From: Hyperoplus lanceolatus
Taxonomy: Eukaryota; Chordata; Actinopteri; Uranoscopiformes; Ammodytidae
Length of the DNA: 64,000 nt
Direction of reading: 5' to 3'
Assembly (NCBI GenBank): GCA_026929865.2
Contig: CM049405.1
Location: 19,056,501-19,120,500 of the forward strand
In this document: piece by piece, positions 21,701 to 48,356 of the stretch
Position numbering within the stretch: position 1 is the first letter of the stretch
How the letters are laid out: every line of letters begins with the position of its first letter
Notes under the pieces: model-generated
Database searches by the model: none
Seen by the model: the letters and a program-made list of their open reading frames with translations, nothing else
Told to the model about the DNA's origin: nothing
Position numbers and translations under genes: made by a program

Positions 21701-21710
21701 TATATATATA

Positions 21711-22828
21711 TAGGGGAAGGTGGGGTGATTTGTGCAACTTTTTACTCAAAGTGATTTTAAAGTGAGGCCTTGACAGTTATGTCTCCAACTCAAATATGTA
21801 CATATATTTCAGGATGTTGTGCATCCCTGGCAATAAAAACTTTGGATCTGGAATAAACTGTTTAAGAAATATAGCTTTCGGAAAAAAGTTGTCTTGTCGC
21901 ACAAATCACCCCACGTAGTGGGGTGATTTGTGCGTCTTGTGTCACAATGACAAAGTCCCATCATCATCTTTCTGGCCATCTGAACTCTCATCAGTGGTGT
22001 CGTTAAGTGGAATTGAGATGTCACCCTCTTCTGAGCTACTGTAGACAATCACTTTCTTTGGTGACCAGCGATACAGCCAGCCACTGGCACAACTCTCAGA
22101 AATGTCTTTGCACTAGTTGCTCCGTGCTTGTGGAACCAACTGCCACCTGACAAATGTGATTCCCCCTACATTTCTGCCTTTAAATCAAGGCTCAAAACCC
22201 ATATGTACACCCTGGTGTTTCCTCCCCATTAACCTCTGCACTACTTACTTACCTCTGCACTACTATCTGTGTTTATGTGGATGTATGGGCTTTACGTCTT
22301 TTATTTTGGTTATTGTTATTTTACCTTCATTGTTTACCTACTGAATGCACTATGTACAGCACTTTGGACAGTGCAAACTGTCATAAATGTGCTTTTATAA
22401 ATACATTTTACTTACTTACTTACTTATAACTCACCCAGGCCCTTGCGCACAAATCACCCCATCCCCAGAATTTTGGATAATAGGCATGATGCAGCAATTT
22501 AGGGTTGACATTGTGCTAACTATATAGACTCAAAGTATAGCATACCAAAGCACTAAAACATGTGTCAAATGTTTTCAAACGTGTCTATAATTGTTCAGAC
22601 ACAATAATCAAAAAACCTTGATCATGGAAATTTTACTTTGAAAGGCAAAACACAGTTTTTTGAGCTTAAATGTGCTTATATCTTATTCCTTGTGTCTCCC
22701 TTCTTTACAGGATGAGTCAAATGGATGGCTCTTCTTAAATATGTGGTCACATTTCCAATTTCTTCCACGGTTTTCTAGAAACAAGGGGTTTTGCAACTTC
22801 CAAAATCACAAATCACCCCACCTTCCCC

Positions 22829-22830
<2 letters not shown>
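21711..22830. mobile_element. DNA transposon copy 1, 1.1 kb, with TIRs and TA duplication
   Basis: The body 21713-22828 starts GGGGAAGGTGGGGTGATTTG and ends with its inverse, CAAATCACCCCACCTTCCCC. TA flanks both sides, and the insertion lies within a TA-rich microsatellite. A TA duplication fits the Tc1/mariner/pogo group, but the family is not identified. The same core GGGGTGATTTGTGC recurs inside: as a 37-bp palindrome at 21898-21934 and singly, inverted, near 22445-22461. A second copy lies at 32553-33668. The element is non-autonomous: it keeps only a short transposase-like tail on the minus strand, broken here, and a LINE 3' end. Confidence 0.85.
22114..22426 (+). mobile_element. LINE 3' end (L2-like) inside transposon copy 1
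   Basis: The + strand frame from 22116 reads VAPCLWNQLPPDK followed by SAFKSRLKTHMYTLVF and a stop. This is the classic C-terminus of L2/CR1-like fish reverse transcriptases (pattern APxLWNxLP...FKSxLKTHL). It is followed by a 3' UTR ending in the usual AGCACTTTGGACAG ... ATAAAT signature and an (ACTT)n tail. It is 5'-truncated. The same fragment sits in copy 2, so it was carried along when the DNA transposon moved. Confidence 0.8.
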
Positions 22831-30689: not shown

Positions 30690-32550
30690 GAGAGTGAGCA
30701 TGGGAATAAGAAATGGCAAATTCTTTAGTTTCAGCCAATTAGGCTGAGAAGCCACTGGTAATTAACTCTCAAGGGACCCACTGAACAGTCATGCACCTAG
30801 TTTACATAATGAGGATGAGAGGAGAGGCTCTTTTTCTCCTCTTTCTCTTTCTCCCCGCTTTTCTCTCATTCTCCGTCTTTTGGCCTGTTGAACCAAAGCA
30901 GAACAGCCCTTCCTTCATATCCATATGACCAATGCCAAACTGCTCCCAACGACCTGGTTAACCACAACATCTAATTCAGCGGGATTCGACTCAGAAATGA
31001 CAAGATATTGTTTTTTTAACATTAGATTGTTTGTCACATGGACATCAAACACTGAAAATTGATTATCCTATGGCACGCTGCCATGTATATTAGACACATT
31101 ATACCTGTGTTCTACTCCTCTCAGATTTCCAAACTCGCTGAATATAAAGCAGAGTGTTTGATAATGTTAATTTATGATAATCCCTTTTGACTCCCTCCTT
31201 CTGGCCTTTGCCCCACTCAAATAACTTTCATTTCCTCCTTTCCAGATATGGAAAGTGACAGACCCGGACTTAAGTCCAGAAGTCTTTTGCTTCACTGAAA
31301 AGATTCTCAATATGAAAGCAAACTGCCTAGTCTTCTAGTTCTCCATAGCTACAGGTTAAGGGGGCATTCCCCCCGTAATACATTCAATTCAATGAATTCT
31401 TCCAAGCACAAATGCCTTTATCCTCCCTTCGTGCCACCACTTCTCCAAATTATATTTTTTCTCCTTGGATATTAAGATTAAAGGATTCTTACTTGGTCTC
31501 TAACTTAATTACATATCTAGTATTTCATTCTTTGTTATGAAATGCGAAAAAAAAAAAAAAAAAAAAATACTCTGACTGAGTACACAAATCCCAAAACGCA
31601 TCAAGCTGAAAACATTGTCTTGAGTGTAAAGACATCATTGAGCTGTAAATAACACAAGCGGGACATATTGTGCTCTGCTGACATATATACATACATGGAG
31701 AAGTACTTCAAAACACATTCATTATACATCAGTGTCATTCTAGAGCACACACACACACATGCACACATACACACAAGGCAGGGCTATAGGGTGCACTGCA
31801 CGTGTGTTTTTAAACCAGGCGCAGAAATAATTGCTTCCTCAAAGAAAACCCCGAGCCGCATGCAAGACGAGAAAAAGTTTGTCACGGTTTCTCAACCGTT
31901 CTGGTCTCCATGAACTCCTTCACTCTTTAAAAACTATTTACTTCTTTTTTTATTTCCGGCACGAGGTTGAATGTAGCTCAGGGGTAGCGTGAATGTAACG
32001 TAACAGGAAGAAATTCATATCTTCAGGTTGTGTGTTTTTATCCTTTGCTGCCGTATTTTTGTTCCTCTTCCTTTGATGGCGGAGTCGGGATAAAAGCGTT
32101 AAGTTCACTTCCTCTTTTATTAAAGGAGGCTTAATTTAATTAGCTTGCACTGCGTGAGCCTGCTATCAGGCCCTTCTGTTCCCATACCCAACGTTTCTGA
32201 GCAAGAGAGGGAGAGAAAAAAGGGAAACTGTCGAGTGGTCTCCAAGGAGGAAGTGTCCCTTTAATCAGACTTCTGCCCAGATCCCATTGCTGTCTCCTAA
32301 GGGAGAAACAAGGATACACACACATACATACAGAAAAGGAATATAGAAAATATTATTGGAATATTTCAATTAATATCAAGAGAACTTGATCAAAGGGCAT
32401 GGATTGCATAGTGTGGATGAATGGATGAAAAAGGCCTCATCTGTACAGAATACAATGCAGTAATACTGTATGGTAAAACTTCCCTGTCTAAAAAAGTGTA
32501 TTCACTTTTTGGTTTTATTTGATTAAAACGCTGGTATTGTATATACAGTA
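30690..32550. other. Intronic sequence, no gene seen
   Basis: Unique AT-rich sequence with a 21-base poly-A at 31547-31567 and a short (AC) run at 31746-31759. No mobile-element ends or coding sequence could be supported. Confidence 0.5.
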
Positions 32551-32776
32551 TATAGGGGAAGGTGGGGTGATTTGTGCAACTTTTTACTCAAAGTGATTTT
32601 AAAGTGAGGCCTTGACAGTTATGTCTCCAACTCAAATATGTACATATATTTCAGGATGTTGTGCATCCCTGGCAATAAAAACTTGGATCTGGAATAAACT
32701 GTTTAAGAAATATAGCTTTCGGAAAAAAAGTTGTCTTGTCGCACAAATCACCCCACGTAGTGGGGTGATTTGTGCG

Positions 32777-32983
32777 TCATTGTGTCACAATGACAAAGTC
32801 ACCATCATCATCTTTCTGGCCATCTGAACTCTCATCAGTGGTGTCGTTAAGTGGAATTGAGATGTCACTCTCTCCTGAGCTACTGTAGACTATCACTTTC
32901 TTTTGGTGACCAGCGTATACAGCCATGCCACTGGCACAACTCTCAGAAATGTACTTTGCACTAGTTGTGGAACCAACTGCCAC
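32777..32983 (-). pseudogene. Possible transposase C-terminal remnant in copy 2
   Basis: The minus-strand frame, 68 codons, includes MAVYAGHQKKVIVYSS, then an acidic, Ser/Asp-rich tail (GESDIS...DESSDGQKDDDGD) and a stop right before the internal palindrome. An acidic tail just inside a transposon end would fit the C-terminus of a transposase transcribed leftwards. No catalytic residues are present. In copy 1 the same frame is broken by several one-base deletions. The upstream part of the gene is replaced by the inserted LINE end. Not identified to family. Confidence 0.35.
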
Positions 32984-33263
32984 CTGACAAATGTGATTCC
33001 CCCTACATTTCTGCCTTTAAATCAAGGCTCAAAACCCATATGTACACCCTGGTGTTTCCTCCCCATTAACCTCTGCACTACTTACTTACCTCTGCACTAC
33101 TATCTGTGTTTATGTGGATGTATGGGCTTTACGTCTTTTATTTTGGTTATTGTTATTTTACCTTCATTGTTTACCTACTGAATGCACTATGTACAGCACT
33201 TTGGACAGTGCAAACTGTCATAAATGTGCTTTTATAAATACATTTTACTTACTTACTTACTTA
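32963..33263 (+). mobile_element. LINE 3' end inside transposon copy 2
   Basis: Same fragment as at 22114-22426, but lacking 11 bp (TGCTCCGTGCT) at its 5' junction, so the VAPCLW part of the reverse transcriptase frame is interrupted here. The (ACTT)n tail has the same length in both copies. Confidence 0.8.
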
Positions 33264-33669
33264 TAACTCACCCAGGCCCTTGCGCACAAATCACCCCATC
33301 CCCAGAATTTTGGATAATAGGCATGATGCAGCAATTTAGGGTTGACATTGTGCTAACTATATAGACTCAAAGTATAGCATACCAAAGCACTAAAACATGT
33401 GTCAAATGTTTTCAAACGTGTCTATAATTGTTCAGACACAATAATCAAAAAACCTTGATCATGGAAATTTTACTTTGAAAGGCAAAACACAGTTTTTTGA
33501 GCTTAAATGTGCTTATATCTTATTCCTTGTGTCTCCCTTCTTTACAGGATGAGTCAAATGGATGGCTCTTCTTAAATATGTGGTCACATTTCCAATTTCT
33601 TCCACGGTTTTCTAGAAACAAGGGGTTTTGCAACTTCCAAAATGCACAAATCACCCCACCTTCCCCTAC

Positions 33670-42076: not shown

Positions 42077-43078
42077 GGAGACTGTCGGTATAGACTCGGT
42101 TTGGTGAAGGATGGAGGATGATGCCCGTAGCATATGAATAAGCTCAGTCTACTCTTCCCCCACCAGTCCTACCACATATAGGCAAACTTGCATATATGAG
42201 CAGACATACCTGTAAGGAACACAATGATTCTGTCTTTCTTGATCTCTTTGTTAGTAGTGTTAATTAGGCTTGATCGTAGCTTAATAATGAATTTGACAAC
42301 ATGAATTTACAAGACATTTGCAATTTATAAAAGCCACCAGCCTGTAATGGCATGCAAGGTAATGTCAGTTCAGCCACATCAGCAGCGAGGGAATCATAAT
42401 AACCTCTCAAATGTGCTCTTTACCTCTGATTGGTTGATTGATGTCTGATATGAAGTGATGTAATGTGTCTCCTTTGGCCCAGTTATCTGTGTCACCTGGC
42501 ATATGTGTGTGCTAGCATGAGTGTCCAACGGATATGAATGAAAGGATTATCTGGTTGCCTACTGGGACCATATGAGCACAACCCCTCTCTCTACAAAACA
42601 CTCCAAAACATACCCCCATTTCTGTTGTTAGTTTTTTAAGACACTCTTTTATCTTTGTAGTGTAACTAAGCAGTGTACAGTGTTGTCATAATGAATAAAG
42701 CCTATTGATATTCAATAAAATCCACATTAATGATGTACGCTTTTTGCACACATTGTTGCATTAAGCATAATGAGTTATAGTAAGATGGCTCAAAACAAAA
42801 CAATTTGCTCAGGCTCTAATACCAACAAAAAGGATGAACATTGCAATCCTGTTTTGTTCTCGCTCTTAGCTTTCCCACAGGACTGTGTTCGTTCACCAGG
42901 CTGGATGGAGGCCAGGCTTAGACATGTGAATACAAGTCACAAGTGTTATTACTCACCTAGATCCTCAATGGCCACTCTGTCTGCTCGGACAGTCGGCCTG
43001 CAGAATGCTGAAGTCTCTAAAGTGGGCTTACAGAAAGCATCATGAAATCCCCCAGTGGCTATGCTGGGACACAAACAC
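36280..43078. other. Intronic sequence, no gene seen
   Basis: No supportable gene. Microsatellites are (AC)n 38064-38115, broken once by TAC, and (GT)n 42020-42073. The region 39400-40300 has several overlapping short frames without recognisable domains. Nothing else could be named. Confidence 0.5.
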
Positions 43079-43086
43079 TGTGTGAG

Positions 43087-43094
43087 TGTGTGTG

Positions 43095-43172
<78 letters not shown>
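43087..43172 (+). repeat. (GT)n microsatellite
   Basis: About 42 GT units with one CGT variant near 43101, located 64 bp upstream of the large fold-back element. Confidence 0.95.
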
Positions 43173-43173
<1 letters not shown>

Positions 43174-43228
43174 TTTTCTGTATCATTAAGGCAACACAAT
43201 ACAATTCCAAATGGGAGCAATGGAGGAG

Positions 43229-43236
43229 AGAATACT
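43229..43236 (+). repeat. Target site duplication AGAATACT, left
   Basis: Exact 8-bp match to 47848-47855, directly outside the two ends of the fold-back element. Eight base pairs is the duplication length of hAT transposons. Confidence 0.85.
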
Positions 43237-44019
43237 ATGAAGGTATTATTGTAGCATAAGTCTTTAGCACATGCAACTGCAGATTTCGAATGCGTAAACT
43301 GAAGTGACAAATGTGTAACAGTAGATTTGAAGTCGTAAATATTTGTTTTGCATGTGTACTCCAAAGTCACAAATGTGTAACAGTAAATTTGAAGTCGTAA
43401 ATATTTTTTCTACCATTGTGGACACAAAATAGGGGCTACGAGTTCACAAATCGTTGTTACGGGTGCACAAATCCTATCCTGTGCATCGCAACTTCAAAGA
43501 GTCATGCGCTTGACACTTTTGCTACAATCATTGCAGCACAGTTGGTGCAAAACACATTTGCACACCCGTGTTTCATAATGTGAGAACATGCCCAAAATTT
43601 GTGAATTCGTAAACCCAAATGTGAACTAACGCATCAGAAGTTGCACATCTGTGAAAAATGTCCTCTCAAATAAAATGATATCGAGCACAGCATTTTAATG
43701 AGCGAGCACAAATCGATGATACAACTGCTCAAATCTGTTCCTACAAGTCTCAGCTGAGGGTTTTCTCTGCTCGAATCTGCTCCTGCAAGTCTCGGCTGTG
43801 GGTTTTTTGCAGGTAGATTTGCACCACGCCCAGGTGGTAAATGTGGTGCAAAAGTGTTTCGTATGCGTAGAACAGATTTGTATCCGTAGAAGGTGGGCGG
43901 GACAACATTGTCGCATCATCCAATGAAAGCGCCGGTTGGGACCCGTGACGTCAGCATGTGAACAAACGGAGGAAAAGCCTTTTTCCTTCGTCCCTTTTCA
44001 CCAGAAATTGTAGGAAATG
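43237..44019 (+). repeat. Fold-back element, left inverted arm
   Basis: 783 bp; pairs with 47085-47847. It includes a CCAAT box at 43920-43924 and a full CRE palindrome TGACGTCA at 43946-43953. The CRE lies in a 21-bp block (43943-43963) that the right arm lacks. Confidence 0.9.
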
Positions 44020-44149
44020 ACTAAATGAGCAACAACAACTATCAAACTAATGCGAAGTAGTAGGTAGTAGTGAATTGAACTCTTTTTCTGTAGTTTTACA
44101 TAGCATTTTTTAAGTAATGGAGAATTATATTATATGTACTCCAGCCTTT

Positions 44150-45900
44150 GAGGAAAAGTAGTCCAAGGTGTCTGTAACAGTAAATAAGCCGCGTTAGCTA
44201 GCTTTGAGGTGGTTTCCCGATCATTTTAGACAGGACAGGAGGCTTATTATGTGACACGGGGAAGTTGAGGAGGGGATACCCATTAAACACCAGGACCTGC
44301 GGTGGTTTAATAAACAGTTGAGCTGCTTCACAATCTCTGTCCGGAGCCGCAGCAGTGTCTGGACTGACGGTCACGGACACAGACCTAGGGTTTAGCTAGA
44401 GCCTACAGGACACGGAGCCATCCCACGGAAACTATGAACTGTAAGTCTGGTTTTCTTATGTTTTTAAACTTCAAAGTTGGTCGGTATAATACGTTCAATG
44501 ATGAGAAGCAACGTGTGGTTATAATGTATTGCAGGCAGCATAGCTAACCACTAGCTAACAAGTCATAATGGGTATAACAGCTAATGTTCGTTAGCATATT
44601 CTTTTAAAGGATGTACCGTTTTTTAAGGCATTTGGTCACTTCTAAGGATGTTAATAATTAGCTGTTAACGTAAAATAAGAAGGCTGACCAATGAATCCTT
44701 CCGTTAATCAGTTAAAATAATCCCGGCGCTAGCCAGGGAAATATGAGTCAGCTGAATACTGGAGTCTTGTTGCTATAATAATAATCAGCGTGTCTGTATG
44801 TCTGCTTTTCTGGGACATCGGCACCTTCATACATAGCCTACTAGTTTTACATCAGGATGTAATGTTAGCATGTGTCGACCTCATATAGAGGGTTTTCTGT
44901 CTTAATAGTGGCTATGAAGATCCAAATAAACACATGTGAGCAGTATACTATTCTGCTCAGCCCGTCTCAACATCATGTTGCTGTTTCTGAATAAAAACAG
45001 GTAGACAAGCGTCCCATTATGCAAAGGATTTTTTTTGATTGTGCAGCTCCATCGTGTTTAAATCATATTTTATATCTGTTTTTCCAGCCCGAAAAAAAAC
45101 ATTTACAACTAATTTTAAAAGTCACTAATGACAAGATACCCCCCACGAAGAGAATGAATTGCAGGGCTGTTATAATAAACTATATTGATTAGTTTTTAGC
45201 TTTGTGTTCTTCATCAACTCGAACCTACATGTATTTTATTTATTTTATAAATCTTAACATTATCTTAACATCTGAATGGCACAATCTGCTTTTCCACAGA
45301 CTCATCTTGGCTGTCCTGCACAAGGCCTGCACAAGTGTCTGGGATTTCCACCCTGTCAGGGAAAAGCCATTGTACAAGTGAGCAGCTACAGTCAGTCCTA
45401 ACTATTATCCGTCATGTGTTTACTATAACATCACTAATGGGATCTAACAATTGTTTCCGTCCCCAGTGTATGCATTGCTGAGGGAAGGACACTCCAGATA
45501 ACTGAAGACTTCACTGCTCCTGCTGCCTTGAGAAGATCTCCGAAGATGGAGCAGCGTGGAACTCACCTGGCAGTCACAGCACATCAGTCTGACTCTACAC
45601 TCTACACACAATTTGTTTTCAATTTTTAGATTGTGATTATTATAAATCTAGACAAAGTCAGATCATACTCAATTCATAATCATATTGATTGCAGTAAATG
45701 AGGTGACATACTCAGTCATGTTTATTTGTTTGACATATTAAAAAGGTAGGGGAGATTTTGATTAAATATGGTAAACAGTTGGGCTACAGACCAAGGACTA
45801 AGTTACTAGTTTTATGTTTTGTTTTATAAAGTCTTGTTCCGGCACATGCCAGAGCATTTTGGGTATTTTGTTCATTTTCTCTTAATAAAATAACGCCATA
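44150..45900 (+). other. Candidate three-exon transcription unit inside the fold-back element
   Basis: Signals in order: a GC-richer stretch 44190-44440; ATG at 44434 followed by donor GTAAGT at 44441; acceptor TTTTCCACAG ending 45299; a 78-bp exon 45300-45377 with donor GTGAGC; acceptor TTTCCGTCCCCAG ending 45466; a third exon; and poly(A) signal AATAAA at 45884-45889. Joined, the ATG frame stays open across both junctions for 39 codons (begins MNYSSW) to TAA at 45499-45501. The sites match consensus well, but a 39-codon frame can occur by chance, so a noncoding transcript or captured gene fragment is as likely. The protein is not recognised. No expression evidence. Confidence 0.4.
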
Positions 45901-46739
45901 CAGAACTTTACTTGGAGGTATGCAATTGTGAGTGCATTCTAGTTTTAAACTGGTAGATTTGTATTTTTCATTTTGACCGTATGTATATGTTTAGTAAATC
46001 CACAAATATTTAAAAGTCCAAATCTTGTGATTTGTTTGTGGGAGTAAGCTTTTACAATACATTTGTACTGATTGTGCTTTGATGTGATAACTGCAAATCA
46101 TAAATATAATTGATATAGGGCATTTTTGCTTTAGCAGCATGCAAACCTACTTATTAATGCAGCACGTGATCTGAATTAACATGTTCTAAACTGCATAAAA
46201 TGTTATGGTGTGACACTTTGTGATTGTGATTAATTAAAGTAATCACTGAAATGAGGTTATATGAAGCTTTGTACCCTGTTCTTCTGGACACGTCACATGA
46301 GGTAAGGTGTATAGCAGAACTGTCTGGGGATAAGCACACAGTTAAACCTGATCATCTAATTATCAGTTTGTGATACAAGTAGTGATAATTTCACATGGAA
46401 AATGTGAGATAGAGAAACAATTATTCCAATTCAGTTTTAATGTGTCCTCTATACTTTTCTATTGCCTTGTAGAGTAGGTTACTTATTCACTTCACTATTC
46501 ACACGTTTAAATTAATTAAGCTTACAACATTTAGAAGACTAAGTGTATGATTTATAAGCATATTTCTGGATTTAGATACATGCTGAATACTCTGCAGCAA
46601 GATATGTAGGCCTACTTTATTTACTTTGGTCCTCAATGCCTGCAACGTCCTCCACCCCCTGCGTGTGGTGTGTTTTAACCATAGATAGTTTTAACAGCCA
46701 GGAGCCTTAACAGCGGCTGCGGGACAATAAACTATCGTC

Positions 46740-46870
46740 GATAGTTAGCCTGCTATCGGTGTATGAATGTGTGTGAATGGTAACGTGTAAATGGGAACAA
46801 GTCTCCCTTGCAAAAGAGTCTTCGGACTCAATGGGATATACCTGTATAAATAAAGGTTAAAAAAATATAT
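46740..46870 (+). mobile_element. Retroposon 3'-tail-like fragment inside the fold-back element
   Basis: The end CTCAATGGGATATACCTGTA followed by TAAATAAAGGTTAAAAAAA resembles a frequent fish retroposon tail (CTCAATGGGACTT...GGTTAAATAAAGGTTAAA). No coding sequence. It shows that the interior has itself collected insertions, or that it derives partly from a 3' UTR that used this tail as a poly(A) site. Confidence 0.5.
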
Positions 46871-47084
46871 AATGGAAATTCATTCTCTATTTAATAAGAC
46901 TACTTTTATTAAAATGTAAAGGTTTTAAAGAGAAAAACAGCAGGTTTAAACAGTTACACCAGTGCCAATCACACAGCAGACGTTACGCTGGCCCTTATAT
47001 CTGCTAAAGTAAACTTGTTTATGACTTTCACTACTGGCATAAGGCTCCGCTGTAGTTCCCTCTTATTCAATTCCCTTATTATTA

Positions 47085-47847
47085 CATTTCCTACAATTTC
47101 TGGTGAAAAGGGAAGAAGGAAAAAGGCTTTTCCTCCGTTTGTCCCAACCGGCGCTTTCATTGGATGATGCGACAATGTTGTCCCGCCCACCTTCTACGGA
47201 TACAAATCTGTTCTACGCATACGAAACACTTTTGCACCACATTTACCACCTGGGCGTGGTGCAAATCTACCTGCAAAAAAACCCACAGCCGAGACTTGCA
47301 GGAGCAGATTCGAGCAGAGAAAACCCTCAGCTGAGACTTGTAGGAACAGATTTGAGCAGTTGTATCATCGATTTGTGCTCGCTCATTAAAATGCTGTGCT
47401 CGATATCATTTTATTTGAGAGGACATTTTTCACAGATGTGCAACTTCTGATGCGTTAGTTCACATTTGGGTTTACGAATTCACAAATTTTGGGCATGTTC
47501 TCACATTATGAAACACGGGTGTGCAAATGTGTTTTGCACCAACTGTGCTGCAATGATTGTAGCAAAAGTGTCAAGCGCATGACTCTTTGAAGTTGCGATG
47601 CACAGGATAGGATTTGTGCACCCGTAACAACGATTTGTGAACTCGTAGCCCCTATTTTGTGTCCACAATGGTAGAAAAAATATTTACGACTTCAAATTTA
47701 CTGTTACACATTTGTGACTTTGGAGTACACATGCAAAACAAATATTTACGACTTCAAATCTACTGTTACACATTTGTCACTTCAGTTTACGCATTCGAAA
47801 TCTGCAGTTGCATGTGCTAAAGACTTATGCTACAATAATACCTTCAT
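47085..47847 (-). repeat. Fold-back element, right inverted arm
   Basis: 763 bp; reverse complement of 43237-44019, missing the 21-bp CRE-bearing block (junction near 47140) and with one extra base in a T run. Open frames in it are mirror images of frames in the left arm and carry no known domain. Confidence 0.9.
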
Positions 47848-47855
47848 AGAATACT
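47848..47855 (+). repeat. Target site duplication AGAATACT, right
   Basis: Exact copy of 43229-43236. Confidence 0.85.
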
Positions 47856-48356
47856 CCGCAGGCGTGCATTCACACAAATGATACATGAGAACGACAACAT
47901 ACGGATTAAAAAATGAACACATCAAGACAGATAGGAATTAGGGTACTGTGCAAAACCCTTCACCATATCCTAATCAGACAAAAAGTCCAAGTGGGTCATG
48001 TTTCTTCTATATACTCGGTTGGTTACTATGGGCAAAACCTTTATGATTGCCCTTATTTAATCCATTGTTAATACAAAATATTGTCTAGGGCACCTTTTAA
48101 GAACGTTTTTAATTACATCATTTTGGAGTAACTAGGGTTTTTGTATTTTTAAGTAACATAACTTTCACGAAAGTAGGAGTTCTTTTTTACTCTTGCCTTT
48201 CCTCGTGTCTCATCATTTCTTTAAATTTTGTTTTTCATCTGTTTGTTTGTTCACCACAGGGGATTTAATCACAAGCTGCTGTTTGTGCATTAGTGAGATG
48301 GATCACTGTGCTTTCCCCAACAAAGGGTCTACTAAGCCCATTGTGTCTGTGGGTGG

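Follow-up and report, generated by a model that had tools for sequence, protein, structure and literature searches.

The 64,000-nucleotide stretch of Hyperoplus lanceolatus DNA that we analysed (contig CM049405.1, positions 19,056,501 to 19,120,500; hereafter the window) contains a 4613-bp fold-back element at 43236..47848 (no strand assigned), which begins with TATGAAGG and ends with CCTTCATA. The element is one copy of a recently amplified, non-autonomous fold-back family that makes 6-bp target duplications and has these same ends, and an IS3EU/GingerRoot transposase acting in trans most likely moves it. Inverted-repeat comparison gives a left arm of 784 bp (43236..44019, + strand) and a right arm of 764 bp (47085..47848, − strand). 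They align in ungapped blocks of 581, 143 and 58 nucleotides, and the differences between them amount to a single substitution, a 1-base gap and a 21-base gap, the last being a 21-bp block that lies at approximately 43942..43963 (+ strand) in the left arm and is absent from the right. An earlier note on this DNA had listed the same three differences (one substitution, one homopolymer base, one 21-bp block) and near-perfect inverted arms, both of which the alignment bears out; it gave arm lengths of 783 and 763 bp. Each arm is internally repetitive: the left has a pair of 62-bp direct repeats, 84% alike, at 43284..43407 (+ strand), and the right has the counterpart of this pair at 47675..47798 (− strand). 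In structure the element belongs with the fold-back elements: its inverted arms are long and contain internal repeats, and the part between them has no coding capacity, by which we mean that there was no Pfam match at E 0.05 among the 10 of 27 frames scanned. Folding of the outer 201 arm bases alone was no better than that of shuffled sequences (z = 0.27).

The interior (44020..47084, no strand assigned) contains no recognised coding sequence. We listed 27 stop-to-stop frames of at least 60 amino acids and scanned 10 of them against Pfam without seeing a transposase, the best match having an E-value of 0.063. The longest frame that is not of the (GT)n type has 135 amino acids and lies mostly inside the right arm. 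The earlier proposals of an interior without transposase, and of a non-autonomous fold-back element moved in trans, are supported as far as they were tested.

The element is flanked on both sides by GAATAC (43230..43235 and 47849..47854, both + strand), and it is this 6-bp duplication, not the exact 8-bp one claimed by the earlier note, that holds across the family. We fetched 20 regions, chosen among 40 scored left-arm matches, so the sample leans to copies with this arm; two of the regions (L009 and L010) proved to be one long copy, giving 20 copies with the window copy included. The outermost bases are TATG...CATA in all 20, and in this frame an exact 6-bp duplication is present in 18 of them. 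Shuffling the right flanks among copies gave, on average, 0.0 chance matches of 6 bp. In the ATG...CAT frame, which has AGAATACT on both sides of the window copy, an 8-bp match is found only in the window copy and L020, both of which also fit the 6-bp frame, and is missing from the other 16 of the 18 copies. The 8-bp fit needs two further bases: the A that precedes the site is shared by 8 of 18 copies, and the T that follows the site by 2 of 18. By chance alone about 0.9 copies would have both, as against 2 observed, so the 8-bp fit of the window copy is at about the chance level. The span of 43229-47855 given earlier corresponds to the element plus the 8-bp flanks proposed there. A comparison of duplications at other copies, suggested in the same note, thus turned out against 8 bp, and target duplications should not be read from one copy.

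Two of the 20 copies lack a duplication. L024, one of them, does not count as a separate insertion, since it arose by segmental duplication together with L025, where the 6-bp duplication is present: the right flanks of the two agree at 99.9% over 4.4 kb, and on the left 352 of 536 flanking bases agree at 98.3%. The two loci (L025, C8:22167700-22177300; L024, C8:22227700-22237300) lie about 60 kb apart, in a segmental duplication that carried one element along.

We searched the assembly (806.7 Mb, 527 contigs) with a 27-bp end pattern and found 196 matches with up to 3 mismatches (101 forward and 95 reverse); the reversed 27-bp control pattern gave none in either direction. Among the matches listed (100 of the 196 ends), 96 are exact; these make up 43 pairs that face inward, with spacings of 4316 to 10737 bp, and leave 10 ends unpaired. 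A second end pattern, at up to 2 mismatches, gave 86 ends in a complete listing, which partly overlap the 27-bp-end matches outside the listed 100; they comprise 43 of TATATATG, 35 of TATTTATG and 8 others, making 17, 16 and 2 pairs respectively. An interior query found at least 40 scored places (211 first-look candidates). Copies with distinct flanks lie on many contigs, and the family is multicopy and recently active. One copy elsewhere is informative about age: L026 (C8:2686779), which has its own target duplication (GAGATT) and the same length of 4613 bp, is 99.91% identical to it over aligned columns. This supports recent movement without reliance on the arms.

Comparison of the arms among copies indicates that the insertion cannot be dated by arm identity. 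We distinguished two arm types, A and B, using 67 diagnostic columns, of which the 31 inside the shared arm (up to position 758) were used for typing. The columns were defined from 13 copies taken beforehand as A/B (the left arms of 12 and the right arms of 13), with the window copy, L009/L010, L026, L027, L017, L020 and L023 set aside, so the typing of those 13 is partly by construction. The 20 sampled copies comprise 14 A/B, five A/A (the window copy, L009/L010, L026, L027 and L020) and one patchwork (L017), with L024 and L025 representing one duplicated insertion; the right side, which is type A in the window copy, is thus type B in 14 of 20. The right arm of L020 is A with one B site and six unreadable sites, and in L011, L014 and L021 the left arm could be typed in its outer part only, something else following it. 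When left and right arms were compared within each of 10 A/B copies, the difference was 0.6% at positions 1-203, rising to 1.5% at 204-479 and 10.0% at 480-758, and the left arms of these same copies differ from each other by only 0.07 to 0.53%. The outer arms have thus been kept alike, and the inner arms diverged before these copies spread.

The right arm of L017 is of type B, interrupted by a tract of 19 consecutive type A sites (positions 480-643), which shows that transfer between arm types happens. L023 had looked like a second patchwork; once only sites within the shared arm were counted, it was A/B with a gap. The A/A copies may have come about through conversion of a B arm, or they may go back to an older A/A source. 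Pooling all 186 listed ends gave 80 inward-facing pairs less than 16 kb apart and 26 unpaired ends, and in 78 of the 80 pairs (43, 17, 16 and 2 in the different classes) both sides carry the same end-variant class. The mismatched pairs are L020 (TATTTATG / TATTATTG) and C4:5959618/5967837, one base different. Since the same 2-3-base change is unlikely to arise independently at both ends, transfer from arm to arm is the simpler account of the matched ends.

The interior of the window copy is also a mixture. We compared it in 250-base bins with subfamily 1 (L012, L019) and subfamily 2. The left 1.5 kb of the copy is nearest to subfamily 1, at 99.6-100% identity, where subfamily 2 has 96.8-100%. 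Between about 45.0 and 47.0 kb most bins are nearest to subfamily 2 (mostly 99.6-100%, versus mostly 98.0-99.2%), with bin 45486 tied and bins 46486 and 46736 nearly so. Given this mosaic, exchange between copies is likely to have occurred, alongside or instead of exchange between arms.

We propose that the element could spread as follows. A transposase would bind the arm ends and excise the element, which would then be joined into a new site cut with a 6-bp stagger. Gene conversion or recombination would exchange sequence between the two arms, so that the ends stay matched and some copies, the window copy among them, come to have near-identical arms. A more specific form of this proposal, in which 770-bp arms of an IS3EU-type family evolve in concert, conversion from one arm to the other keeping the outer ends alike as the inner arms drift, is one that we put forward tentatively, as a serious possibility to which we would not yet commit; the exchange would, on this proposal, take place within one element and not between copies. 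If it is correct, new end variants would spread to the two ends together and give rise to new subfamilies. The large set of close copies with diagnostic sites allows exchange between transposon arms to be traced.

The near-perfect arms of the window copy might instead reflect a very recent origin without any arm exchange, an account that concerns the arms only and is compatible with an IS3EU assignment. L026 gives it some substance, because this 99.91% identical copy is also A/A and an old A/A source is therefore possible. Against it stand the ten A/B copies, so close to each other in the left arm and so different between their own inner arms, together with the A tract in the B arm of L017 and the mosaic of two subfamilies in the window copy, and on balance we regard it as improbable. 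The earlier description of the element as young is sustained by its near-identical relative elsewhere in the genome, and not by its arms: arm identity is an unsafe clock, because close copies have divergent arms and L017 shows transfer between arm types, and insertions of this kind should not be dated by it. That an assembly artefact has duplicated one arm, which the earlier note had named as an outcome that would undo its reading, is scarcely credible, since the copies are numerous, are spread over many contigs and have flanks and duplications of their own, and the arm without the 21-bp block recurs in L026, L009/L010, L020 and L027.

As to the superfamily, hAT elements make 8-bp target duplications, and Polinton/Maverick elements are large, with AG..CT termini and genes for polymerase, integrase and capsid-type proteins. 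The earlier note had filed the element as hAT-type, and the repeated octamer around ATG...CAT in the window copy, with a second 8-bp match in L020, would agree with that. Only these 2 of 20 copies do so, however, and both also fit 6 bp; 18 of the 20 have exactly 6 bp in the T..A frame, and 16 of the 18 have no 8-bp match. With TA..TA ends as well, a hAT-type fold-back element is extremely improbable for the copies sampled, and the element probably moves from hAT to a small, little-studied superfamily. According to the excerpted text of PMC10045372, the termini of complete IS3EU families are always TA..TA and their duplications usually 6 bp, and GingerRoot elements have 6-bp duplications and mostly TA..TA termini; an excerpt of PMC12730594 gives 6-bp duplications and TAYGG..CCRTA ends for fungal IS3EU. 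The element shares with these its TA..TA ends, found in 20 of 20 copies, and its 6-bp duplications, found in 18 of 20. It differs in having no transposase and arms of about 770 bp (terminal inverted repeats, TIRs, of the fungal families are described in the excerpt as longer than 30 bp).

Some other superfamily with 6-bp duplications–Polinton/Maverick, Dada or an undescribed one–is unlikely, if not to be dismissed. Polinton duplications are 6 bp long (PMC10045372, excerpted text) and those of Dada 6 or 7 bp (PMC8869645, likewise), and the helper was not found here, all of which would suit such a superfamily. Many Dada families have multicopy RNA genes as their insertion sites, according to the same excerpt of PMC8869645. 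We saw no such preference: ARAGORN found no tRNA gene in the 17 regions given to it, of the 20 fetched, and there was no Rfam match in the window at 42800-48300, the only place where snRNA genes were looked for. Neither the termini nor the large coding capacity of Polinton/Maverick fits a 4613-bp element with no Pfam match in the frames scanned, although a non-autonomous Polinton derivative may not be countered by missing coding capacity. Because its ends are TA..TA and its duplications 6 bp, and because Polinton and Dada fit poorly, IS3EU is the best fit on ends and duplications. Among the openly accessible papers that our literature searches listed, we found no report of an IS3EU fold-back family. 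The element is ordinary in kind, and probably represents a fold-back family in an unusual superfamily.

We searched for a candidate helper through the integrase domain PF24764, which we take, on our own reading, to be the IS3EU transposase. The genome has 84 matches to it at E ≤ 0.001 and 122 at E ≤ 10. Several of these cores have open frames of more than 250 amino acids, and some copies are near-identical (L037-L039, 99.8-99.9% over 3.5 kb). Intact loci include C2:1151379, C9:10347547, C11:18746324, C1:4919413, C9:22604757 and C21:15178206. We compared the termini with 56 positions standing for the 84 stronger matches and, by eye, with the rest of the 122. Among the matches listed, none lies within 30 kb of the 96 exact ends, and the nearest to any listed end of the second pattern are 22 to 37 kb away. 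We compared the element with 20 PF24764 loci including 1.5 kb of flank on each; protein likeness was no better than E 0.015 among the matches listed. Where ends of the PF24764 elements were sought through divergence between copies (in 1.5-kb flanks), no credible TA..TA end emerged. At C6:18246949-18259203 the PF24764 pieces are in one orientation and the first 24 positions of the domain are reversed, 12 kb away, an arrangement that looks as if an exon sat in long inverted arms.

Longer copies of the family were considered as autonomous partners, and we read short pieces from five of them (L057-L061). L018 is interrupted by a nested insertion, the proteins of which are Harbinger-like (Pfam DDE_Tnp_4 and Myb_DNA-bind_5). 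The pieces from L057, L058, L059 and L060 are the usual interior, alone or beside other repeats, and that from L061 is GC-rich DNA without a match to the sequences compared. The autonomous relative with the same ends that the earlier note had suggested looking for was found neither among the longer copies read, nor through PF24764 and the paired ends, nor by likeness.

Several observations weigh against an IS3EU-type family with exchanging arms. None of the 84 or 122 PF24764 matches falls inside a terminus pair, among the pairs listed, and no copy with TATGAAGG...CCTTCATA ends was found to carry a transposase. The element has no DNA likeness at E 0.01 to the 20 PF24764 loci, and the identification of this domain with the IS3EU transposase is itself our assumption. 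The fifth base of the end is an A (TATGA), whereas the ends of fungal IS3EU are TAYGG in the excerpt cited above. L009/L010 has no duplication and no explanation for its absence, and L017 is the single clear arm patchwork.

Other fold-back elements offer parallels. The Drosophila elements Galileo and Newton have long, internally repetitive arms, arm identity within copies, and chimeras (PMC2775673, excerpted text); in two Galileo copies the TIRs of one and the same copy are more than 99% identical, against a divergence of about 7% from one copy to the other, and recombination has produced chimeric copies. Galileo belongs to the P superfamily and makes 7-bp duplications (consensus GTAGTAC), unlike the 6 bp here, and the likeness is one of description only. 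Tetris of Drosophila virilis resembles the element in its long arms, its lack of coding sequence, the failure to find a partner and the possible homogenisation of its arm repeats, and differs in its 8-10-bp duplications and in its placement in Mutator by its authors, who state that most fold-back elements seem to belong there (PMC4079207, excerpted text). Turning from fold-back elements, non-autonomous hAT elements have terminal inverted repeats and no coding capacity, and differ in duplication length (8 bp versus 6 here).

The family also seems to insert into itself, as at C4:32579521-32588735, where an end pair of subfamily 3 (32580559-32585164) lies between an end pair of subfamily 1. A different arrangement is present in L014: there (503-1110 of the region, from C2:18464702 on) a 608-bp partial arm stands directly before a complete element, within one 6-bp duplication (CGTTCG). 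Doubled ends are also present at C23:14207894/14208481 and C13:13912268/13912574.

Part of the interior (44434-45889) resembles a small transcription unit, with an exon-like end at 44440 (ATGAACT^GTAAGT), an AG at 45299, GTGAGC after 45377, an AG at 45466 and AATAAA at 45884-45889. Splicing at 44440, 45299, 45377 and 45466 would give a putative 39-codon frame, read from the DNA letters only. The related copy L059, by our reading, lacks 11 bp of the second exon-like stretch, which would shift this frame.

Two kinds of repeat lie elsewhere in the window. A long (GT)n run at 43080-43172 ends about 60 bp to the left of the insertion, and there are many such runs across the window. A second repeat, of about 1.13 kb and with ends TAGGGGAAGGTGGGG..CCCCACCTTCCCCTA, is present in two copies (21701-22830 and 32542-33668) that are 97.8% alike, in the same orientation and 10.8 kb apart; part of it also occurs inside a longer fold-back family copy on C499 (L058).

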